This document shows, piece by piece, positions 31,584-41,804 of a stretch of DNA of 64,000 nt. Location of the stretch: contig NZ_JAHLKM010000004.1 in the NCBI RefSeq assembly GCF_024449025.1, positions 62,001 through 126,000 on the forward strand. Direction: 5' to 3'. The position numbers and the translations under genes are program-made. Each line of letters opens with the position of its first letter. Positions within the stretch are counted from its first letter, which is position 1. Below the pieces are notes generated by a model. That model saw only the letters and a list, made by a program, of their open reading frames with translations. It searched no databases and was not told the origin of the DNA. Source of the DNA: Natronomonas aquatica (GTDB lineage: Archaea; Halobacteriota; Halobacteria; Halobacteriales; Haloarculaceae).

Positions 31584-31763
31584 TCAGATGTAATCGAGGA
31601 AGTACGCGAGGATAAGGACGACGATCACGACCGCGACGAGCGGGCTGATCGACGCGAGGATGTCGATGAACAGCCCGATGATCTGGAGGGCGAGCAGGAC
31701 GACGACGAGTATCAGGACGAGCTTCAGCAGGTCCTCGACGTCGAGTTTCCCACCGGTGTGCAT
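31584..31763 (-). CDS. Small two-TM membrane protein (DUF7554-like)
   Basis: A 59-residue protein with a short hydrophilic start (MHTGGKLDVEDLLK) and then two transmembrane helices (about 15-38 and 41-58) ending FLDYI. Function unknown; a haloarchaea-restricted small membrane family. The ATG at 31763 is set by the polar N-terminus; a longer frame to 32123 overlaps the divergent secreted-protein gene. It is translated just ahead of thpR. Confidence 0.7.
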   Translation of the reverse strand: MHTGGKLDVEDLLKLVLILVVVLLALQIIGLFIDILASISPLVAVVIVVLILAYFLDYI

Positions 31764-31857
31764 ACCGGTCGCTGGGATCGGAGGACGCAAAAACGCTGTG
31801 GCCACCCCGCCGGGCCCGATCGGTCGGTTTTTGAGGCACCGTCGCAACGTTCCGGTA

Positions 31858-32535
31858 ATGAAGCTTCCCGTTCGGGCTCTGCTGGTTCTCTGTATCGTTG
31901 CCCTCTTTTCGGGGCTTTCGGCCGGAGCGGTCGCCGCGGCCGAGGCGGACGATCGACCCGCCGGTGGCCAACTCGTGATCGAACTCGACACGAACGGCGA
32001 CGCCGACGTCGTCTTCACCGACGAGTTCGATATCACCGACCCACAGCAACGGGCGCTCTTCGAGGAACTCCGCGAGAACGAGGAGTTCAGACGGGCGGCG
32101 GCGGGACAGGTCCGCGGCAGCATGCAGTCGGTCTCCGAGCGGGTCGCCGAGGATCTCGACCGCGAACTGGTGATCGGTGAGGTAACCGCCGAAACGACGG
32201 TCGACGGCGAGACCGGGACGGTCGCCTACGGGTTCCGCTGGGAGAACCTCGCAACGCTCGAAGACGAGCGGATCGTGCTGTCGGAGCCGTTCTCGACGTA
32301 CACCAGTCTGGATCGGGAACTCGTCGTCGTCGCCCCCGACGGGTACGAACTCGCGAGCGTCTCCCCCGAGCCGTCCCGACAGGAAGACGCCGTCGCCAGG
32401 TGGCCGGGGCTGACAGAGTTCGGCGACGGTTTCGAGATCGTCGCCGCTCCCGCCGAGACGCACGGTGACGGGTCGATCGCGATCGGGACCGCGGCGCTGT
32501 TGCTCTCGACGCTTTTTTTCGCCCGGGAGCGGTGA
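31858..32535 (+). CDS. Secreted or anchored protein, DUF7345-like
   Basis: A 225-residue exported protein. The signal peptide is about 1-27 (VRALLVLCIVALFSGLSAGAVAAAE). The mature domain (about 35-195) is a beta-rich acidic region: GQLVIELDTNGDADVVFTDEF, a helix EELRENEEFRRAAAGQV, then ELVIGEVTAETTVDG. A C-terminal transmembrane helix (about 205-222) ends FARER. In haloarchaea this ectodomain precedes a membrane anchor, sometimes with a winged-helix cytoplasmic part that is missing here. It is divergent from the small membrane-protein gene. Function unknown. Confidence 0.75.
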   Translation: MKLPVRALLVLCIVALFSGLSAGAVAAAEADDRPAGGQLVIELDTNGDADVVFTDEFDITDPQQRALFEELRENEEFRRAAAGQVRGSMQSVSERVAEDLDRELVIGEVTAETTVDGETGTVAYGFRWENLATLEDERIVLSEPFSTYTSLDRELVVVAPDGYELASVSPEPSRQEDAVARWPGLTEFGDGFEIVAAPAETHGDGSIAIGTAALLLSTLFFARER

Positions 32536-32611
32536 CCCCCCTATGGGTCGTTTGACCCCCCGCCGGCCGGCGTACGGCACCGTTCCCCACGGAGGCGGCG
32601 TTCCGCAAGCG

Positions 32612-32618
32612 TTTAGTA
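32612..32618 (+). promoter_or_regulatory. TATA box of the argG leader
   Basis: GCGTTTAGTACT is centred about 29 bases before the ATG of the 29-codon leader ORF at 32644. It is the only convincing TATA box in the 279-base spacer ahead of argG, so the argG mRNA would carry a leader of about 175 bases. Confidence 0.5.
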
Positions 32619-32643
32619 CTGTTCTGCGGATAGAGACGAGTAC

Positions 32644-32733
32644 ATGAAAGAGCCTCACCGCGACGCGACCGACGATAGCGGTGGGTTCGTTCTTCTCCCG
32701 CGACCGCGACGACGGGCCGCCAGGCCCGAATAG
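32644..32733 (+). CDS. Candidate arginine-rich leader peptide of argG
   Basis: A 29-codon ORF, MKEPHRDATDDSGGFVLLP then RPRRRAARPE, ending at TAG 32731-32733. Five of eight codons from 32701 to 32724 are Arg (CGA, CGA, CGA, CGG, AGG), an odd composition for this acidic proteome. Its ATG lies at the position where a leaderless transcript from the TATA box at 32612 would begin. It ends 81 bases before argG. Downstream segments can pair in alternative ways (see 32774-32792). I infer a translation-sensing leader peptide like those of bacterial amino-acid operons. It has not been shown to be translated and could be chance. Confidence 0.4.
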   Translation: MKEPHRDATDDSGGFVLLPRPRRRAARPE

Positions 32734-32773
32734 ATCCCCATCCACCGTCGCGCTCGCTCCGATTTCCGACGAT

Positions 32774-32792
32774 GACCGTCCGGCCGACGGTC
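32774..32792 (+). promoter_or_regulatory. Hairpin between leader ORF and argG (possible attenuator)
   Basis: GACCGTC (32774-32780) and GACGGTC (32786-32792) form a perfect 7-base stem with loop CGGCC, followed by GCTTTC. The right arm can instead pair with ACCGTCG at 32744-32750 (7 bases). The segment 32746-32751 can in turn pair with GCGACG inside the Arg codons (32706-32711). The U-tract is weak, so it is at best a partial terminator or a block to ribosome loading. Confidence 0.35.
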
Positions 32793-32814
32793 GCTTTCAG
32801 AACCCAAACCACCA

Positions 32815-34014
32815 ATGTCAGATACCGAACGCGTCGCGCTCGCCTTCTCCGGCGGGCTCGATACGACCGTCTGCGTACCGCTGCTCGAAGAAGAATACGG
32901 CTACGACGAGGTCATCGGCGTCACCGTCGACGTCGGCCAGCCGACCCCGGAGTTCGAGGAGGCCGAGGAGACCGCCGAGACGCTGGATCTCGAACACTAC
33001 GTCGTCGACGCCAAAGCCGAGTTCGCCGAGCTGTGTTTCGACGCCGTCCGCGCGAACGCCTCCTATCAGGGGTACCCGCTGGGGACCGCGCTGGCCCGGC
33101 CGGTCATCGCCGAGGCGATCCTCGAGGTCGCAACGGAGCAGGGCTGTTCCGGGCTCGCTCACGGCTCGACCGGCAAGGGCAACGACCAGCTCCGCTTCGA
33201 GGCCGTCTGGCGCGATTCGGACCTGGAGGTCATCGCGCCCGTCCGGGAACTCGGGTTGACCCGGGAGTTCGAACAGGAGTACGCCAGAGAGCGCGGCCTG
33301 CCGATCGAGGGCGGCGACGAGGGCAAATACAGCATCGATACGAACCTCTGGAGCCGATCGATCGAGGGCTCGGAACTCGAGGAGCCGGGCTACGTGCCGA
33401 GCGAGGACATCTACGAGTGGACCGAGGCACCGACCGCCGAGACCGAAGAGATCGAAGTCGGCTTCGAGGACGGCTACCCGGTTTCGTTGAACGGCGAAGC
33501 GATCGAGCCGGTCGAACTCATCGAAACCCTCAACGAACTGGCCGGCGGGTACGGCGTTGGTCGTTCGGACATCATGGAGGACCGCATGCTCGGGCTGAAA
33601 GTCCGTGAGAACTACGAGCATCCCGCCGCGACGGTTCTTCTGAACGCCCATTCGGCGCTTGAGGACCTCGTGTTGACGAAAGAGGAGCGTGCCTTCAAAA
33701 AGCAAATCGATCACGAGTGGTCCGAGAAGGGCTATCAGGGGCTCGTGAACGCGCCGTTGGTCGACGCACTGGAGGGGTTCATCGAGAAGACCCAAAAGCG
33801 CGTGGCGGGTACCGTGACGATCCGCTTCGAGGGTGGACAGGCCCGCCCGGTCGGCCGCGAGTCGAAATACGCCGTCTACTCCGCGGAGGCGGCCTCGTTC
33901 AACACCGAGGACGTCACCGGCAGCATCGAACAGGACGACGCGACCGGCGTCGCGAAGTACCACGGGTTCCAGGAACGTCTGGCCAACCGCGTTATCGAGA
34001 ACAACGAGGAATAA
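32815..34014 (+). CDS. argG: Argininosuccinate synthase
   Basis: A 399-residue enzyme joining citrulline and aspartate with ATP. The P-loop is AFSGGLDTTV (near 9-18). GSTGKGNDQLRFE binds substrate (near 121), and EGGDEGKYSIDTNLWSRS is the typical central signature. The C-terminal LVLTKEERAFKK and tetramerisation helix are intact. It is the first enzyme gene of the arginine cluster, with argH 3 bases downstream. The long 5' leader may control it. Confidence 0.97.
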   Translation: MSDTERVALAFSGGLDTTVCVPLLEEEYGYDEVIGVTVDVGQPTPEFEEAEETAETLDLEHYVVDAKAEFAELCFDAVRANASYQGYPLGTALARPVIAEAILEVATEQGCSGLAHGSTGKGNDQLRFEAVWRDSDLEVIAPVRELGLTREFEQEYARERGLPIEGGDEGKYSIDTNLWSRSIEGSELEEPGYVPSEDIYEWTEAPTAETEEIEVGFEDGYPVSLNGEAIEPVELIETLNELAGGYGVGRSDIMEDRMLGLKVRENYEHPAATVLLNAHSALEDLVLTKEERAFKKQIDHEWSEKGYQGLVNAPLVDALEGFIEKTQKRVAGTVTIRFEGGQARPVGRESKYAVYSAEAASFNTEDVTGSIEQDDATGVAKYHGFQERLANRVIENNEE

Positions 34015-34017
34015 CCG

Positions 34018-35514
34018 ATGTCGGGCGAGGGCGACGGCGGAACGGACGGTTCGGACGCGGGCGACGAGGCGGGCGACGTCGTCCGCCGCGACCGCTTCAG
34101 TGGCGGGCCGGCCCGCGGCTTTCTCTCGAGTCTAGCGGCCGACGAGCGCATCTTCGCGGCCGATCTCGCCGTCGATCGGGCTCACGTCGTGATGCTCGAC
34201 GAACAGGGGATCCTCGAGCCGGCTGACGCGGCGGCGATCCTCGATGCGCTCGACGACATCGAAGACGCCGGCCACGGCGCACTTTCCGACGGCGAGGACG
34301 TCCACGCGGCGATCGAGACGGCGGTCATCGAGCGGATCGGCGAACGCGGCGGCCGGATGCACACCGCCCGCTCGCGCAACGACGAGGTCGCCGCCTGTAT
34401 CCGCTATCGGCTGCGCGAGGACGCCCTCGACGCGATCGAGGCGACCCTCGAGGCCCGCCGGATGCTCGTCGACGTCGCGGCCGACCACACCGAGACGGTG
34501 ATGCCGGGCTTTACGCACCTCCAGCCAGCCCAGCCGACGACCGTCGCTCACTACCTGTGTTCGTACGCCTCGGCGCTGGCCCGCGACACCGAGCGGCTGT
34601 TCGACGCCTACGACCGGATCAACCGCTCGCCGCTCGGGGCGGCGGCCTTCGCGGGGACGCCGTTCGACATCGATCGTGAGCGGACGGCCGCCCTGCTGGG
34701 CTTCGAGGGGCTGGTGGAGAATTCGATGGACGCCGCCTCCGCGCGGGATTTCCTCGTGGAGACGACCGCCGCCGTCGCGGCGCTTTCGACGACGCTGTCG
34801 GGGCTGGCGGAGGATCTGGTCGTCTACTCGAAGGCCGGCTACGTCGAGTTGGACGACGCCTACGCCTCGACGTCCTCGATCATGCCCCAAAAGAAAAACC
34901 CCGACACGATGGAACTCGTCCGCGGGACTGCGGGCGATGCGGCCGCCGGGCTGGGCGGGCTGTTGTCGATACTGAAGGGGCTCCCCAGAGCCTACAACCG
35001 CGACCTCCAGCGCGCACACACACACGCGTTCGAGGCAATAGACGCGGTAACCGAGGCGACGAGCGTCGCCGCCGGCGCGGTCGCGACGGCCGAGTGGCGG
35101 ACCGACGCCCTCGCGGCCGCCGCCGGGGAGGGCTTCTCGACGGCGACCGGCGTCGCGGATCTGCTCGCAGCCTCGGGGGTTCCGTTCCGGACCGCCCACG
35201 AGGTGGTCGCCTCGGCGGCCGAGCGTGCGGGCGAGACAGTCACGTACGCCGATCTGGATTCGGCGGCCGAGGCGGTGCTCGGCGATGGGCTGGCCGCCTA
35301 CGCCGACCGTGACGCGGTCGCCGACGCCCTCGATCCGGTAGAGAGCGTCCGGTCTCGCGACTCCGTCGGCGGCCCGGCGCCCGAGACGATCGAGGGGAGC
35401 CTCTCGACTCTTCGTGGCGGCATCGAGGCCGACCGGGGGACGCTCTCGACGCGGCGGGACGCCCTCGCGGACGCCAGAGACTCCCTCGAAACGGAGGTTG
35501 CCCGCCGTGTCTGA
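34018..35514 (+). CDS. argH: Argininosuccinate lyase
   Basis: A 498-residue fumarase/aspartase superfamily enzyme that splits argininosuccinate into arginine and fumarate. Landmarks are HTARSRNDEVA (near 117), TVMPGFTHLQPAQPTT (near 160-175) and the superfamily signature SSIMPQKKNPD (near 286). Three bases after argG, it is clearly in the same transcript. The N-terminus has a 20-residue acidic Gly/Asp-rich stretch before the conserved core, so translation could begin slightly later, but no better start is seen. An AT-rich spacer of 161 bases follows. Confidence 0.96.
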   Translation: MSGEGDGGTDGSDAGDEAGDVVRRDRFSGGPARGFLSSLAADERIFAADLAVDRAHVVMLDEQGILEPADAAAILDALDDIEDAGHGALSDGEDVHAAIETAVIERIGERGGRMHTARSRNDEVAACIRYRLREDALDAIEATLEARRMLVDVAADHTETVMPGFTHLQPAQPTTVAHYLCSYASALARDTERLFDAYDRINRSPLGAAAFAGTPFDIDRERTAALLGFEGLVENSMDAASARDFLVETTAAVAALSTTLSGLAEDLVVYSKAGYVELDDAYASTSSIMPQKKNPDTMELVRGTAGDAAAGLGGLLSILKGLPRAYNRDLQRAHTHAFEAIDAVTEATSVAAGAVATAEWRTDALAAAAGEGFSTATGVADLLAASGVPFRTAHEVVASAAERAGETVTYADLDSAAEAVLGDGLAAYADRDAVADALDPVESVRSRDSVGGPAPETIEGSLSTLRGGIEADRGTLSTRRDALADARDSLETEVARRV

Positions 35515-35641
35515 CCGTCGACCGACCCGACAAAGCTAATAACATATATCTGACATACAGCTGAATTTAATCGCTAAAAAGCCCTTTAGGGTCCGCTAGA
35601 CTCCAGTATCGGTTATTAATTTCATTTGATAAGTTCGAAGC

Positions 35642-35648
35642 TTTTAAG
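35642..35648 (+). promoter_or_regulatory. TATA box of the lysW-argXCBDEF operon
   Basis: GCTTTTAAGTGG lies about 30 bases before the lysW ATG (35676), so lysW starts at or near the 5' end of the mRNA. The spacer 35515-35675 is strikingly AT-rich and also carries CCCTTTAGGG, a small palindrome that may help end argH transcription. Confidence 0.5.
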
Positions 35649-35675
35649 TGGGTTCACAACCGAGTATCCGGTACA

Positions 35676-35858
35676 ATGGCAGACGAAACTATCACCGCGG
35701 AAGACCCCATCACGGGCGAGGAGATCGAGATTCCCGGCGACGTCGAGGTCGGCGAAATCATCGACAGCCCCATTACCGGGGCCGAACTCGAGGTCGTCTC
35801 GATCGATCCGATCGCCCTCGAGGAAGCCCCCGAACTCGAAGAGGACTGGGGGGAGTAA
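35676..35858 (+). CDS. lysW: Amino-group carrier protein LysW/ArgW, cysteine-less form
   Basis: A 60-residue carrier. Its C-terminal EDWGE provides the terminal Glu whose side chain is joined to glutamate or aminoadipate, so the intermediates of ornithine/lysine synthesis stay protein-bound. Usual LysW proteins have two CxxC-type zinc knuckles; here the equivalent positions read EDPITG and DSPITG and the protein has no cysteine at all. Landmark LysW sequence DVEVGEI and GAELEVVS is retained. It is first in the operon with argX, argC, argB, argD and argE, which all act on the carrier-bound substrate. Confidence 0.93.
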   Translation: MADETITAEDPITGEEIEIPGDVEVGEIIDSPITGAELEVVSIDPIALEEAPELEEDWGE

Positions 35859-35862
35859 GGCG

Positions 35863-35961
35863 ATGGACGTCGGCACAGCCCGCCGTGTGAACACCGCGTC
35901 CGGGTCCGGGTCCGGGTCCGCGTCGCGGAGCAGCCGCCCGAAGACGGGTGAGTCCGCGTGA
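35863..35961 (+). CDS. Possible 32-residue coupling ORF between lysW and argX
   Basis: ATG 35863 follows the lysW stop by 4 bases with GGGGGGAGTAAGG before it. The ORF runs MDVGTARRVNTASGSGSGSAS to KTGESA. Its TGA overlaps the GTG start of argX (GTGA), the pattern of translational coupling. The middle is a GGGTCC hexamer repeated about three times. The peptide resembles nothing I know; it may exist only to carry ribosomes across to argX. Low confidence. Confidence 0.3.
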   Translation: MDVGTARRVNTASGSGSGSASRSSRPKTGESA

Positions 35962-36821
35962 ACGTCGGCGTCCTCTACTCGCGTATCCGCCGCGACGAGA
36001 AACTGCTGTTGAGCGAACTCCGCGATCGGGGTCACGAGGTCACCAAGATCGACGTCCGGAAAGAGCGGTTCGGCGTCCACGAGCCCCCCCAGGCGTTCGA
36101 CGGGGTCGATATCGTCGTCGATCGCTGTCTCGCCACCAGCCGCTCGCGGTACGTCACCCGGTTCGTCGATGCCTACGATCTGCCGGTGGTCAACGATCCG
36201 GAGACGGCGGCGATCTGTGCCGACAAAGCCCGAAACAGTCTCGTTCTCGCCGAGGCCGGGATTCCGACCCCGGCGACGGAGGTCACCTTCACCAAGGAGT
36301 CGGCGATGGAGTCCATCGAGGAGTTCGGCTACCCCTGCGTGTTGAAACCCGTCATCGGGTCGTGGGGGCGGCTGATGGCGAAGATCGACTCCCGCGATGC
36401 CGCCGAGGCCATCCTCGAACACAAAGAGACCCTCGGTCACTACGAGCACAAGGTCTTCTACATCCAGGAGTTCGTCGAGAAGCCCGGCCGTGACATCCGT
36501 GTGGTCGCCACCGACGGCGAACCGGTCGCGGCGATGGCCCGTTCGTCGGATCACTGGCTGACCAACGCCGCACGCGGTGCCGAGACCGAGGCCATCGAGA
36601 TCACCGACGAGATGGCGGATCTCGTCGAGCGCGCCTCCGAGGCGGTCGGCGGCGGTCTGCTCGGCGTCGATCTGATGGAGACGGGCGATTCCTACACCGT
36701 CCACGAGGTCAACCACACCGTCGAGTTCAAGGCGCTCAACGAGGTCTCGGACGTCGACGTGCCGGCGACGGTCGTCGACTGGCTCGAATCGCGGGTCCGC
36801 GGCGTCGAGGTGACCGCATGA
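35958..36821 (+). CDS. argX: Glutamate--LysW ligase ArgX (LysX family)
   Basis: A 287-residue ATP-grasp ligase that joins the alpha-amino group of glutamate (or aminoadipate) to the C-terminal Glu of LysW. Landmarks are NDPETAAICADKARN, the ATP-grasp core CVLKPVIGSWGRLM (near 131-144), FYIQEFVEKPGRDIRV and HEVNHTVEFK. The start is GTG 35958; an in-frame stop lies 9 bases upstream, so no longer start is possible. It overlaps argC by ATGA. Neighbouring argG/argH/argF favour the arginine (glutamate) role, but these enzymes can also serve lysine synthesis. Confidence 0.93.
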   Translation: MNVGVLYSRIRRDEKLLLSELRDRGHEVTKIDVRKERFGVHEPPQAFDGVDIVVDRCLATSRSRYVTRFVDAYDLPVVNDPETAAICADKARNSLVLAEAGIPTPATEVTFTKESAMESIEEFGYPCVLKPVIGSWGRLMAKIDSRDAAEAILEHKETLGHYEHKVFYIQEFVEKPGRDIRVVATDGEPVAAMARSSDHWLTNAARGAETEAIEITDEMADLVERASEAVGGGLLGVDLMETGDSYTVHEVNHTVEFKALNEVSDVDVPATVVDWLESRVRGVEVTA

Positions 36822-37861
36822 GCGGACCGCACACCGCAAGCGTCGTCGGCGGGAGCGGCTTTACCGGCGGCGAACTGCTGCGTTTGCTTTCGGGCCATCC
36901 GAACTTCGAGGTCGTCCAGGCGACGAGCCGGGGCTACGCGAACAAGACCGTCGGCTCCGTCCACCCCAACCTCCGGGGGCGCGACCTCCGGTTTTCCTCG
37001 CCGGCGGATCTCGAGTCGGTCGACGTCCTCTTTGCGTGTACGCCCCACGGCGTCACGATGGAACGCATCGACGCCTTCCGGGAGGCCGCAGACACCGTGG
37101 TCGATCTGAGCGCGGACTTCCGGCTGGATTCGGAGGCCGAATACGACGAGTGGTACGACGGCCACGACCGCCCAGAACTCCTCGAAGAAGCCGAGTACGC
37201 CCTGCCGGAACTCAACCGCGAGAACCTCCCCGGCGCGGCGCTGATCGCCTCGGGTGGGTGTAACGCCACGGCGGCGATCCTCGGACTCAAACCGCTCTTC
37301 GAGGCCGATCTCCTCGCCGGCGAGGAGCGGATCGTCGTCGACGTGAAGGTCGGCTCCTCGGAGGGCGGGGCGGGCGGCGGCGAGGCCTCCTCGCATCCGG
37401 AGCGTTCGGGCGTCGTCCGGCCCTACGCGCCGACGGGCCACCGCCACGAGGCCGAGATAGAGGCCTTCCTCGGTACGGGGGTCTCCTTTACCGCCCACGC
37501 GGTCGATATGACCCGCGGGGCGTCGGCGACCTGCCACGTCTACCCGGAGGCGCCGGTCTCGACGGCCGATCTCTGGACGGCGTTCAGAGACAGCTACGCC
37601 GAGGAGCCGTTCGTCCGGATCGTCGCGGGCGGGTCCGGCGTCTACCGGTACCCCGAACCGAAGGCCGTCGCCGGCTCGAACTACGCCGAGGTCGGCTTCG
37701 AGGTCGACCCGAAGAACGGCCGCGTCGTCGTCTTCTCGGCGATCGACAACATGATGAAAGGCTCGGCCGGCCAGGCCGTCCACGCGGCCAACGTCGCGTT
37801 GGGCTTCGAGGAGACGGCCGGCCTCGGGTTCGAGGGGCTACACCCGGTGGGTTCGCCATGA
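36818..37861 (+). CDS. argC: [LysW]-N-acyl-gamma-glutamyl phosphate reductase
   Basis: A 347-residue NADPH-dependent semialdehyde dehydrogenase of the ArgC/LysY type. The nucleotide loop is GGSGFTGGELLRLL (near 9-22). The catalytic Cys lies in ASGGCNATA (near 147-150), and GSNYAEVGFE is near the end. It reduces the carrier-bound acyl phosphate made by ArgB. Short overlaps on both sides (ATGA) mark tight translational coupling within the operon. Confidence 0.95.
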   Translation: MSGPHTASVVGGSGFTGGELLRLLSGHPNFEVVQATSRGYANKTVGSVHPNLRGRDLRFSSPADLESVDVLFACTPHGVTMERIDAFREAADTVVDLSADFRLDSEAEYDEWYDGHDRPELLEEAEYALPELNRENLPGAALIASGGCNATAAILGLKPLFEADLLAGEERIVVDVKVGSSEGGAGGGEASSHPERSGVVRPYAPTGHRHEAEIEAFLGTGVSFTAHAVDMTRGASATCHVYPEAPVSTADLWTAFRDSYAEEPFVRIVAGGSGVYRYPEPKAVAGSNYAEVGFEVDPKNGRVVVFSAIDNMMKGSAGQAVHAANVALGFEETAGLGFEGLHPVGSP

Positions 37862-38679
37862 CGGTCGTCGTCAAGATCGGCGGCGCCCGCGCGGTCGACC
37901 CCGAGGGCGCCCTCGCCGATATCGCGGCGCTGATCGACGGGGGGACCGACGTCGCCGTCGTCCACGGCGGTTCGACGGCGGTCGACGACGCCTTAGAACG
38001 GATGGGTATCGAACCCGAATACGTCGAGACGCCATCGGGCGTCGTCGGCCGGTTCACCGACACCGAGACGATGGACGTGTTCAAGATGGCGATGGCCGGG
38101 CGGGTCAACACCGACCTCGTGACCGGACTGCAAAACCAGGGCGTCGACGCGGTCGGCCTCTCGGGCGTCGACGGCGGGCTGTTCACCGGCCCCCGGAAGT
38201 CGGCGGTTCGTGTCCTCGAGGACGGCAAAAGGAAGATCCGCCGCGGCGACCACTCGGGGACGATCGAGGACGTCAACGGCGAGTTGCTGGAGACGCTTCT
38301 GGCGGACGGGTACACGCCCGTGGCCTCCCCGCCGATGCTGGCGGACGACGGCGTCGCGGTGAACACCGACGCCGATCGCGCCTCGGCGGCCGTCGCGGCC
38401 GAACTCGGCGCGGCGCTCGTCTCGCTGACCGACGTTTCGGGCGTCTACCGCGATCCCGACGATCCCGCGACGCGAATCGACCGCGTCGGGACGCCCGAGG
38501 CGTACGAGGAACTGCAGGCGGCCGCCGAGGGCTTCATGAACCGGAAGGTGATGGCGGCGACCGAAGCGCTCGAGGGCGGCGCCAGCGGGGTCGTGATCGC
38601 CGACGCCAACGCGGAAGAACCGATCCGTTCGGCCCTCGATGGCGCCGGAACGCACGTTTTTCCGGACGCGCTCGAATGA
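37858..38679 (+). CDS. argB: [LysW]-glutamate kinase
   Basis: A 273-residue amino-acid kinase family enzyme (ArgB/LysZ). It has VVKIGGARAVD (near 3-12), VHGGSTAVDD for substrate binding and NTDADRASAAVAAELGA (near 163-180) for ATP. It phosphorylates the side chain of the carrier-bound glutamate. The start overlaps the argC stop. There is no N-terminal arginine-sensing helix, so feedback inhibition by arginine of the usual hexameric ArgB kind is unlikely. Confidence 0.94.
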   Translation: MTVVVKIGGARAVDPEGALADIAALIDGGTDVAVVHGGSTAVDDALERMGIEPEYVETPSGVVGRFTDTETMDVFKMAMAGRVNTDLVTGLQNQGVDAVGLSGVDGGLFTGPRKSAVRVLEDGKRKIRRGDHSGTIEDVNGELLETLLADGYTPVASPPMLADDGVAVNTDADRASAAVAAELGAALVSLTDVSGVYRDPDDPATRIDRVGTPEAYEELQAAAEGFMNRKVMAATEALEGGASGVVIADANAEEPIRSALDGAGTHVFPDALE

Positions 38680-38692
38680 CACTGATACAACC

Positions 38693-39820
38693 ATGAGCGG
38701 CTTCGTCTTCTCGGAGAAACCGATCCGCATCGACCGTGGCGAGGGAGTGTATCTCTACGACACGAACGGAACCGAGTACCTCGATTTCGGCGCGAGCTAC
38801 GCCTGTACGCCGGTGGGACACTGCCACCCCGAGGTCGTCGACGCGGCGACGGGCCAACTCGAGGAGCTGTTCTACGTGCAGGCGTCGTACCCCCACGCGG
38901 CTCGAACGGCGCTGTACGAACAGCTGGCGAGGGTCGCGCCGGTCGATATCGACAACGTCTGGCTGTGTAACTCCGGCACCGAGGCCAACGAGGCGGCCCT
39001 GAAGTTCGCCCGCCACGCGACGGGGCGTTCGAAGATCGTCGCGACGACCCAGGCGTTTCACGGCCGGACGATGGGGTCGCTCGCGGCCACCTGGAAGGAC
39101 GAGTACAAGGAAGGGTTCGGCCCGCTGGCCGACGGTGTCGAGTTCGTCGAGTACGGCGACAGCGAGGCGATGGCGGCGGCGGTCGACGACGAGACCGCCG
39201 CGGTCATCATCGAGCCCCTGCAGGGCGAGGGTGGGATCAACCCCGTCTCGAAGAAGTATCTCCAGTCGGTTCGCGTCGAGACGGCGACCGCCGGCGCGGC
39301 GCTGATCCTCGACGAGATCCAGACCGGGCTCGGCCGGACCGGCGAGCTGTGGGCCGCCGACAAGTACGACGTCGTTCCGGATATCCTGACGACGGCGAAG
39401 GGGCTCGCGAGCGGGCTCCCGCTGGGGGCGACGCTGTGTCGCGATTGGATCGCCGAGGACGCCGGCAACCACGGCTCGACGTTCTCCGGCGGTCCTGTCG
39501 TTTCGGCCGCCGCGGGGGCGACGCTCGAGGTGATCGAACGGGAGGGTCTCCCCGCGCACGCGGCCGATGTCGGCGCCTACCTCCGCGAGGAGACCGAGGC
39601 CCGGCTCGGCGACGAGATCCGTGAGGTCCGGGGACACGGTCTCATGATCGGTATCGAGGTCAAGCGCGGCTCGAACCGGCTGTTGCGCGATCTCGCTTTG
39701 GAACACGGGATCCTGGCGCTGCCGGCAGGCCGGACGGTGCTTCGGCTGTTGCCGCCGTTGACCGTCGAGCGCGAGCACGCCGACGAGGTCGTCGACGCTC
39801 TCGAGGCCGTCCTCACATGA
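38693..39820 (+). CDS. argD: [LysW]-glutamate semialdehyde (aminoadipate semialdehyde) aminotransferase
   Basis: A 375-residue class III PLP aminotransferase. Landmarks are LDFGASYACTPVGHCHPEV, CNSGTEANEAALKFAR (PLP phosphate), LILDEIQTGLGRTG, and the PLP Lys in TTAKGLASGLPLG (near 236). It makes carrier-bound ornithine or lysine. The ATG at 38693 is the family start; an upstream frame to 38639 overlaps argB and was rejected. ATGA overlap with argE follows. Confidence 0.94.
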   Translation: MSGFVFSEKPIRIDRGEGVYLYDTNGTEYLDFGASYACTPVGHCHPEVVDAATGQLEELFYVQASYPHAARTALYEQLARVAPVDIDNVWLCNSGTEANEAALKFARHATGRSKIVATTQAFHGRTMGSLAATWKDEYKEGFGPLADGVEFVEYGDSEAMAAAVDDETAAVIIEPLQGEGGINPVSKKYLQSVRVETATAGAALILDEIQTGLGRTGELWAADKYDVVPDILTTAKGLASGLPLGATLCRDWIAEDAGNHGSTFSGGPVVSAAAGATLEVIEREGLPAHAADVGAYLREETEARLGDEIREVRGHGLMIGIEVKRGSNRLLRDLALEHGILALPAGRTVLRLLPPLTVEREHADEVVDALEAVLT

Positions 39821-40911
39821 GCGAGACGGCCCCGACACTTCCGGCTGACACGGAGGCCCGCGAGTTACTCGAGGAACTCGTCTCGACCCCCTCACCGACG
39901 CCCGAGGAGACGGCATGTGCCGAGGTACTCGCCGATTTTTTCGAACGGAACGGCCGGACCGTCTTCGTCGACGAGGTCGGCAACGTCCGGGCGCCGGCCG
40001 ACGACAGCGTCCTCTATACGTCCCACATCGATACGGTCCCCGGCGACATCCCGGTTCGGATCGAGGAGGGAGAGAACGGCCCCGGACTGTGGGGTCGTGG
40101 AGCGGTCGACGCGAAGGGGCCACTCGCCGCGTTGGCTGTCGCCGCCGTCCGGACGGGCGTTTCCTTCGTCGGCGTCGTCGGCGAGGAGGTCGACTCCCGC
40201 GGGGCGCGTCACCTCGTCGACGACCGCGATCCCCCGGAGGCTGTCGTCAACGGCGAACCCTCCGGCTGGGACGGAATCACGCTGGGCTATCGCGGCATCC
40301 TCAGTGGGACCTACATCTGTACCTCCGAGTCGGGTCACACCTCCCGTCCGGAGAACAACGCCATCCAGGAGGCCATCGCGTGGTGGTCTGCCGTCGAGGC
40401 GCGGTTCGGCGGAAGCAGCGTCGCCCGGGACGCCGACACCGACGTATCCGACGCGGCGGACGTCCCGATATTCGAGCGTGTGACCCCCAAGCCCGTCGAG
40501 ATCGAGGGCGGCGTCTCCGAGGACGGGCTGGCCGTCGAGACGACGCTGGACGTACAGCTTCGGGTCCCACCGTCGTACACGACGGAAGACGTCAGAGAGA
40601 TCGCGGACGGCGAGTTGACGGCGGGGACGGTCAACTGGACGGACGCCGTCGAGCCGACGATGCAGAGTCCCCGCACGCCGGTCGCGCGGGCGTTCCGGGT
40701 CGCGATCCGCGAGCAGGAGGGCGACCCCCGGCTCCTACGGAAGACCGGAACGGCCGACATGAACATCTACGCCGAGGCGTGGGACTGTCCGGTGGTGACC
40801 TACGGCCCCGGCGATTCGGACTTCGATCACGCCCCGAACGAACACCTCGAACTGTACGAGTTGGATCGTGCGGTCGCGGTGCTCGAAACGGTTGCGGAGG
40901 AACTGGCATGA
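39817..40911 (+). CDS. argE: [LysW]-ornithine/lysine hydrolase
   Basis: A 364-residue M20-family metallohydrolase (LysK/ArgE type) that releases ornithine from the carrier. Metal ligands appear in SHIDTVPG (His/Asp near 69-71), GRGAVDAKGPLA (Asp near 95), and VVGEEVDSRGA (Glu-Glu near 122). GTADMNIYAEAW is near the C-terminus. Overlaps at both ends (ATGA with argD and with argF) show coupling. The name argE is by role; the family is LysK. Confidence 0.93.
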   Translation: MSETAPTLPADTEARELLEELVSTPSPTPEETACAEVLADFFERNGRTVFVDEVGNVRAPADDSVLYTSHIDTVPGDIPVRIEEGENGPGLWGRGAVDAKGPLAALAVAAVRTGVSFVGVVGEEVDSRGARHLVDDRDPPEAVVNGEPSGWDGITLGYRGILSGTYICTSESGHTSRPENNAIQEAIAWWSAVEARFGGSSVARDADTDVSDAADVPIFERVTPKPVEIEGGVSEDGLAVETTLDVQLRVPPSYTTEDVREIADGELTAGTVNWTDAVEPTMQSPRTPVARAFRVAIREQEGDPRLLRKTGTADMNIYAEAWDCPVVTYGPGDSDFDHAPNEHLELYELDRAVAVLETVAEELA

Positions 40912-41804
40912 ACTTCCTGAACATCGACGACCTGACACGAGAACAGCTCGAAGACGTCCTGACCCGGGCGGTCGATCTCAAAGAGCGGACCGCCCGCGGA
41001 AAGACCGCCGATGCGATGGCGGGTCGGACGCTGGCGATGATCTTCGAGAAGCCCTCGACGCGGACGCGGGTCTCCTTCGAGACCGGCGCGACACAGCTCG
41101 GCGGACACGCGATCTTTCTGGGCCCCGACGACATCCATCTGGGCCACGGCGAGCCGGTCAAAGACACCGCACGCGCCCTGTCGGGCTACGTCGACGTCAT
41201 CATGGCGCGGGTCTACGACCACGAGGACGTCGTCGAACTGGGCGAGTACGCGACGGTTCCGGTCGTCAACGGGCTGACCGACGACGCACACCCCTGTCAG
41301 ACGCTCGCCGACCTGTTGACGATCAGAGAACACTTCGGTGGCTTCGAGGACGCGACGGTCGCGTGGGTCGGCGACGGCAACAACGTCTGTCAGTCGTTCG
41401 TCCTCGGTGCCGCGGTCGTCGGGCTCGATCTCGTCGTCGCTACCCCCGAGGGCTACGGCGTCGACGACGCGATCCTCGATCGGGCCGCCGAACTCGGCAC
41501 TGCCCCGGAAACGACAACCGACCCCGAGGCTGCCGTCGCGGGCACCGACGTCGTCTACACGGACGTGTGGGTCAGTATGGGGGAAGAATCCGAACGGGAA
41601 ACGAAACTGGCGGCCTTCGAAGGGGCGGGCTTTCAGGTGACCGAGGAGCTACTCGGCGACCGGCTCCTGATGCACTGTCTGCCGGCCCACCGCGGCGAAG
41701 AGATCACGGACGCGGCGCTCGAGAGCGACGGTGCCATCGTCTGGGAGCAGGCGGAGAACCGCCTTCACGCACAGAAGGGGCTGTTGACGCATCTGCTGTC
41801 GTAG
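40908..41804 (+). CDS. argF: Ornithine carbamoyltransferase
   Basis: A 298-residue transcarbamylase. The carbamoyl-phosphate motif STRTRVSFE is near 47-55, and the ornithine-side motif HCLPAHRGEE near 256. NGLTDDAHPCQTLADL lies between them. It converts ornithine to citrulline, the substrate of ArgG, and so links the two arginine transcripts. It is last in the operon and overlaps argE. A short run of GGGTTCG repeats follows the stop. Confidence 0.96.
   Translation: MNFLNIDDLTREQLEDVLTRAVDLKERTARGKTADAMAGRTLAMIFEKPSTRTRVSFETGATQLGGHAIFLGPDDIHLGHGEPVKDTARALSGYVDVIMARVYDHEDVVELGEYATVPVVNGLTDDAHPCQTLADLLTIREHFGGFEDATVAWVGDGNNVCQSFVLGAAVVGLDLVVATPEGYGVDDAILDRAAELGTAPETTTDPEAAVAGTDVVYTDVWVSMGEESERETKLAAFEGAGFQVTEELLGDRLLMHCLPAHRGEEITDAALESDGAIVWEQAENRLHAQKGLLTHLLS

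Follow-up and report, generated by a model that had tools for sequence, protein, structure and literature searches.

Leader-peptide attenuation is already known as a bacterial mechanism, and leaders of the trpL, hisL, leuL, thrL and ilvL type share a run of end-product codons near the stop of a short ORF, a position upstream of biosynthetic genes and an association with RNA hairpins. The leuL leader reportedly prefers rare codons, and we know of no arginine leader-peptide attenuator in E. coli. Free tryptophan is sensed through the nascent peptide in the case of tnaC, and the fungal arginine attenuator peptide is a conserved peptide that senses free arginine. Archaea use FttA/aCPSF1 instead of Rho. 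Leaderless polycysteine short ORFs have been described in mycobacteria (Canestrari et al. 2020, as cited in PMC9031893), and mycobacterial cys leaders were predicted in PMC1262725. A 2021 paper states that no mechanism of transcription attenuation or antitermination is known in archaea (PMC8448881), and the open-access literature that we searched contains no example of archaeal leader-peptide attenuation. Here we present a short ORF upstream of argG for which comparison across genomes makes it probable (about 0.7) that it is a leader-peptide attenuator, leaderless itself, which uses rare CGA codons to sense charged tRNA-Arg and acts in cis on the arginine operon.

The window, that is the whole stretch of 64,000 nucleotides analysed, comes from a haloarchaeal genome, its closest named records being those of Natronomonas. 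The spacer in front of argG measures 279 bases (32536-32814), and the leader within it sits upstream of an argGH-lysW-argX-argCBDEF cluster:

32612-32618, + strand: TATA box TTTAGTA of the leader promoter, seen in the window sequence and placed for leaderless transcription
32644-32733, + strand: leader ORF of 29 codons, MKEPHRDATDDSGGFVLLPRPRRRAARPE, with an Arg-rich C-terminus, predicted to be leaderless
32701-32724, + strand: Arg codons CGA, CGA, CGA, CGG and AGG (codons 20, 22, 23, 24 and 27 of the leader)
32815-34014, + strand: argG (argininosuccinate synthase), which opens the arginine cluster
34018-41804, + strand: argH, lysW/argW, argX, argC, argB, argD and argE, together with argF, whose identity was read from the ORF sequence alone

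The ORF on the 5' side of the spacer (31660-32535, + strand) carries a signal-like segment in frame and a hydrophobic C-terminus, and has no NCBIfam match. An initial annotation of the window had interpreted the spacer as a possible arginine attenuator, in which a leader ORF rich in Arg codons governs a switch between alternative hairpins. The spacer, TATA box, ORF, Arg codons and pairings that it listed are all present where it placed them; the leader ORF with its regulatory Arg codons is upheld by the comparison presented below, and the specific hairpin switch is not.

The TATA box lies at a leaderless distance from the ORF in the window and in its relatives alike, which bears out the claim that the leader has a promoter of its own. 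Among 98 leaders, a TATA element matching at 6-7 of 7 positions begins 29-35 nt before the leader ATG, with a mode of 31-32. Where argG has a TATA box itself, the spacing is similar (30-36 nt). The ORF is thus predicted, from promoter spacing, to start at the 5' end of the transcript.

We drew argG loci from 60 relatives and from 80 public genome contigs. An equivalent leader was found upstream of argG at 91 of 95 loci and, after more genomes had been added, at 109 of 121 non-redundant loci, almost all of them haloarchaeal. The rule applied was strict (a small ORF preceded by a TATA box, with at least four Arg near its end), and the 109 include at least one probably spurious case (L135). To judge from these counts, conservation of the leader is far from chance, and the short ORF ending in Arg codons that the initial annotation had drawn from the window alone is a recurrent, in-frame and CGA-enriched feature. 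A typical haloarchaeal argG leader has 22-35 codons with the Arg run at its C-terminus, as in the Haloferax example MATRSTCATFAPLRAAAVRPRRRAL. Six further loci (L027, L059, L068, L075, L080 and L087) fail the strict rule, yet a leader-like ORF is present in them. Four loci without a leader (L132, L134, L136 and L137) belong to small genomes or carry a distant ArgG. The sole full-size haloarchaeal locus with no trace of leader or stop hairpin (hairpin B, below) is that of Haloarcula amylovorans (L082). It is also one of just two loci at which argH was not found beside argG, the two genes adjoining each other in 108 of 110 loci, and another gene directly precedes its argG; judging from this locus, the leader seems to be tied to the arg cluster. 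L095 has both hairpin B and the Arg run ahead of argG but no recognisable start codon, and about 50 nt further upstream there is another GC hairpin, CGGGCC-TAAC-GGCCCG.

What is conserved in these ORFs is above all the codons. Arginine makes up 40 per cent of the final 11 leader residues, against 14 per cent before them. In 84 diverse leaders, CGA accounts for 242 of the 389 Arg codons (62 per cent) within the last 12 codons, compared with 52 of 237 (22 per cent) earlier in the leader. As a reference for codon usage we took argG and the arg cluster, where CGA is rare: 22 of 1,113 Arg codons in argG (2 per cent) and 4 of 163 in the arg genes of the window. The enrichment is confined to the reading frame: over the final 12 codons CGA was counted 242 times in frame, compared with 2 and 13 times in the two alternative frames. 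It lies mainly between codons -10 and -4 relative to the stop, with a peak at -7 to -4; leaders contain on average 3.0 CGA codons in their last 14. A homopolymeric codon run near the stop, as in poly-codon short-ORF attenuators, is therefore present. Conservation in frame and at the codon level suggests that the leader, with its several Arg codons near the end, is translated, and on the evidence of the codons it is a coding sequence under selection for Arg codons.

Two RNA hairpins within the leader region coevolve across species, and neither figured in the initial annotation:

32654-32661, + strand: 5' arm of hairpin A, CTCACCGC (coevolution, compensatory changes)
32678-32685, + strand: 3' arm of hairpin A, GCGGTGGG (coevolution, compensatory changes)
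32713-32728, + strand: hairpin B, CGGGCC-GCCA-GGCCCG (conservation, compensation, coevolution)

Single-sequence folding-energy z-scores are just mildly negative, and the case for leader structures consequently rests on comparison between species. Hairpin A, in the 5' half of the ORF, gave a species-swap coevolution z of -10.3 over 82 loci, with compensatory change at four of its eight pairs within Natronomonas. Hairpin B is the best-conserved structure of the argG leader region. A hairpin spanning the leader stop occurs in 78 per cent of leaders, against 4.5 per cent with shuffled flanks; all six pairs show compensatory change, and the species-swap z is -9.0. The arms are exchanged between clades, versions including CGGGCC, GGCCC, GGGGC and GACCCC. 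In most relatives the loop holds the leader stop codon; in the clade of the window the stop (32731-32733) follows directly after the hairpin.

The window clade (L003-L008 and L014) has lost the loop stop through a one-base deletion, and its frame ends just after hairpin B. At L009 the loop stop was lost by mutation, and a different deletion restores a stop at the same place after the hairpin.

Arms of the form GGGCC...GGCCC are palindromic and lie about 60-90 bp after the predicted transcription start, so hairpin B might alternatively be a DNA site for a repressor acting downstream of the promoter, the ORF being incidental. We find this scarcely credible: arm identity changes fully between clades, which is unexpected for a DNA-binding site, the loop is asymmetric and contains a stop codon, and the CGA codons follow the reading frame. 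The position of the stop within a stable hairpin, and a leader C-terminus that is often RPGR or RPGL, could also recall the fungal arginine attenuator peptide, with the nascent peptide sensing free arginine in the ribosome tunnel and stalling at the stop. Such sensing is very improbable here. Leader peptides vary outside the Arg run, and their C-terminal end shifts with the hairpin (RPGR, RPGL, RPAL, RRAL); moreover, the strong preference for CGA indicates a tRNA rather than a peptide as the sensed entity. Hairpin B dictates part of the leader peptide sequence, a point that counts against the attenuator reading.

The leader is also specific to its locus. A covariance model built on the hairpin B region gave 45 matches, distributed over 43 of the 60 related genomes, and 43 of the matches lie directly in front of argG. 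Two weak matches lie elsewhere (G014:C53:28451-28516, E 0.001; G011:C91:26348-26413, E 0.01). Across 295 genomes of the phylum, matches were confined to the order of the window, one in each genome. From these searches the leader appears to be essentially a one-copy element per genome, beside argG and restricted to haloarchaea. No Rfam model matched above its gathering score (best E-value 3.1, all far below), and the reading as a known RNA family was rejected on that ground. An ORF with a promoter of its own, next to an argG that often has another, might instead be a stand-alone gene for an Arg-rich, nucleic-acid-binding microprotein that is upstream of argG by chance, and Haloferax does produce many small proteins (PMC4983044). 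We consider this quite unlikely, given that the N-terminal half varies freely with hairpin A, that codons are conserved beyond the residues alone and that the single copy stays constantly beside argG.

Other amino acids do not seem to be served by similar leaders. The leader rule was also applied to the 1.5 kb flanking trpE, hisG, ilvB, trpB and leuA on both sides; of the 24-30 loci covered per gene, 1-3 satisfied it, compared with 24 of 30 for argG. No leaders rich in Trp, His or branched-chain residues were found in that range (24-30 relatives for each gene). A general multi-amino-acid leader system was rejected because of this lack of equivalents; the system would be arginine-only, a further point against the attenuator reading.

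Downstream of the leader, three further features of the spacer were considered:

32734-32746, + strand: G-free, pyrimidine-rich tract on the 3' side of hairpin B (base composition in relatives)
32747-32756, + strand: anti-Arg strand GTCGCGCTCG, which can pair with the Arg codons at 32701-32710 (helix D; 97.5 per cent paired in Natronomonas)
32774-32792, + strand: hairpin C, GACCGTC-CGGCC-GACGGTC (two compensatory pairs within the genus)

It is here that the switch proposed earlier was located. For the toggle between ACCGTCG (32744-32750) and CGACGGT (32785-32791) the species-swap comparison gave z = -0.1 (p = 0.45); coevolution is lacking, and the toggle is not supported. Pairing of GCGACG (32706-32711), inside the Arg codons, with CGTCGC (32746-32751) is nearly always formed in Natronomonas, in almost invariant sequence, and has a weak signal across genera (z = -2.1, p = 0.02). 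The third element, hairpin C, is conserved within the genus (95 per cent paired) and not clearly beyond it, no significant signal being obtained across genera. We detected no coevolving pair that would constitute a mutually exclusive antiterminator, nor any other strong alternative pairing among 168 window pairs.

The tract after hairpin B is C-rich. In the roughly 16 nt that follow the stop hairpin, G mostly amounts to 0-12 per cent in loci of both architectures described below, against 31 per cent upstream of the leader. An intrinsic terminator between leader and argG was rejected on the ground that U-runs are not enriched in architecture 1, TTTTT occurring in none of its 53 spacers. The lack of a U-tract terminator and of a coevolving antiterminator counts against the attenuator reading. 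In architecture 2 there is a mild enrichment of TTTT, 37 where 23.6 would be expected, at 21-89 nt on the 3' side of the stop; the conserved promoter region there may be the cause.

The argG loci fall into two architectures. In the first (53 loci) the leader stop lies 74-115 nt from argG, and argG has no TATA box of its own save in three cases. In the second (56 loci) the distance is 119-199 nt, and an argG TATA box is present in 47. The window belongs to architecture 1, and the leader promoter is the sole recognisable promoter for its cluster. The last 100 nt before argG in architecture 2 (for example L102, L077 and L051) contain a conserved block of about 60 nt, in which GGTTAGCGTCCGCTCTA / CCTATAGGCATCTCT is followed by the AT-rich TTAATTTTC and then by AACGAATTTAAG. 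This block indicates a separate argG promoter, with a probable regulator site, and it occurs in several haloarchaeal families. As far as promoter predictions go, argG could be transcribed without the leader in architecture 2, which counts against the attenuator reading.

The same data bear on another explanation, in which the leader senses arginine alike but acts on translation of argG through refolding or reinitiation in a long 5' region, with no premature termination. In its favour, one transcript would carry both leader and argG in architecture 1, where the spacer is short and a second TATA box occurs in 3 of 53 loci, no terminator-like U-tract was found, and the leaderless polycysteine ORFs of M. 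smegmatis work in this way according to the account cited in PMC9031893. On the other hand, strong coevolution with the start region of argG was not seen for any leader segment (the best z among the 168 window pairs, about -3, is weak), and translational control exerted on the long transcript would bypass most expression where argG has its own promoter, as in architecture 2. We therefore regard purely translational control as rather unlikely. For sequestration of a ribosome-binding site, the signals of pairing with the argG start were at most weak.

Under the attenuator reading, which we prefer, we infer that charged tRNA-Arg is sensed by ribosome stalling. When arginine is ample, the ribosome would run through to the stop codon, which hairpin B contains or adjoins, and then depart; hairpin B would now fold beside the pyrimidine tract, G-poor and left exposed, and the majority of transcripts would end or be silenced there. 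When arginine is scarce, the ribosome would stall on the CGA codons that lie 4-10 codons ahead of the stop, where it would adjoin or mask the 5' arm of hairpin B. The ribosome footprint extends roughly 14 nt ahead, so that with a CGA codon at -7 to -4 in the A site this arm would be touched or covered. Hairpin B would be blocked by the stalled ribosome, and transcription would proceed into argG. Since hairpin B would form just when the ribosome is absent, it is likely to be the OFF structure and stalling the ON signal; ON upon stalling is the direction expected for a biosynthetic operon. Hairpin A might make the polymerase pause so that the ribosome catches up. As no U-tract is present, a stop that depends on a factor of the FttA/aCPSF1 type is likelier than an intrinsic stop, and for the OFF state we favour FttA-type termination, in or after the G-poor tract, over poor translation by about two to one. 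This model accounts for architecture 2, with its second promoter, solely as an extra supply induced by starvation.

The odds seem to us somewhat in favour of a class-wide, arginine-specific attenuator in haloarchaea, in which a leaderless CGA leader would carry its stop codon within the loop of one regulatory hairpin, and a G-poor tract behind that hairpin would serve factor-dependent termination; it would be the first leader-peptide attenuator in Archaea. If this is true, archaeal ribosomes serve as amino-acid sensors in operon control, the regulation of arginine synthesis in haloarchaea is accounted for, and transcription-translation coupling together with FttA-type termination becomes open to a direct test in a genetically tractable group (Haloferax). 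The argG leader also suggests a screen of archaeal 5' regions for leaderless sensory ORFs.

Compared with the classical bacterial attenuators, the argG leader likewise has its regulatory codons near the end of the ORF and lies directly upstream of the operon. It differs in being archaeal and, by prediction, leaderless, in a main hairpin that takes in the 3' end of the ORF and usually has the stop codon in the loop, and in having neither a U-run terminator hairpin nor a coevolving antiterminator pairing. Its presumed working is attenuator-like, yet the classical terminator/antiterminator pair was looked for and not found. With the Rho-dependent attenuation of E. coli tnaC it shares the possibility that a ribosome at the end of the leader controls access to a G-poor, pyrimidine-rich tract. 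The fungal arginine attenuator peptide (arg-2/CPA1 uORF) is likewise encoded 5' of an arginine gene, but the argG leader keeps its codons while its peptide is not conserved. The mycobacterial polycysteine ORFs are leaderless, as the argG leader is predicted to be, and resemble it in having the codon run near the stop, pyrimidine motifs between leader and operon, and no evident terminator hairpin. The argG leader departs from them in being archaeal, in using arginine and not cysteine, in the conserved hairpin around its stop and in giving no strong sign of a hidden ribosome-binding-site pairing. On this comparison, we regard the mycobacterial leaderless polycysteine ORFs as its nearest analogue.
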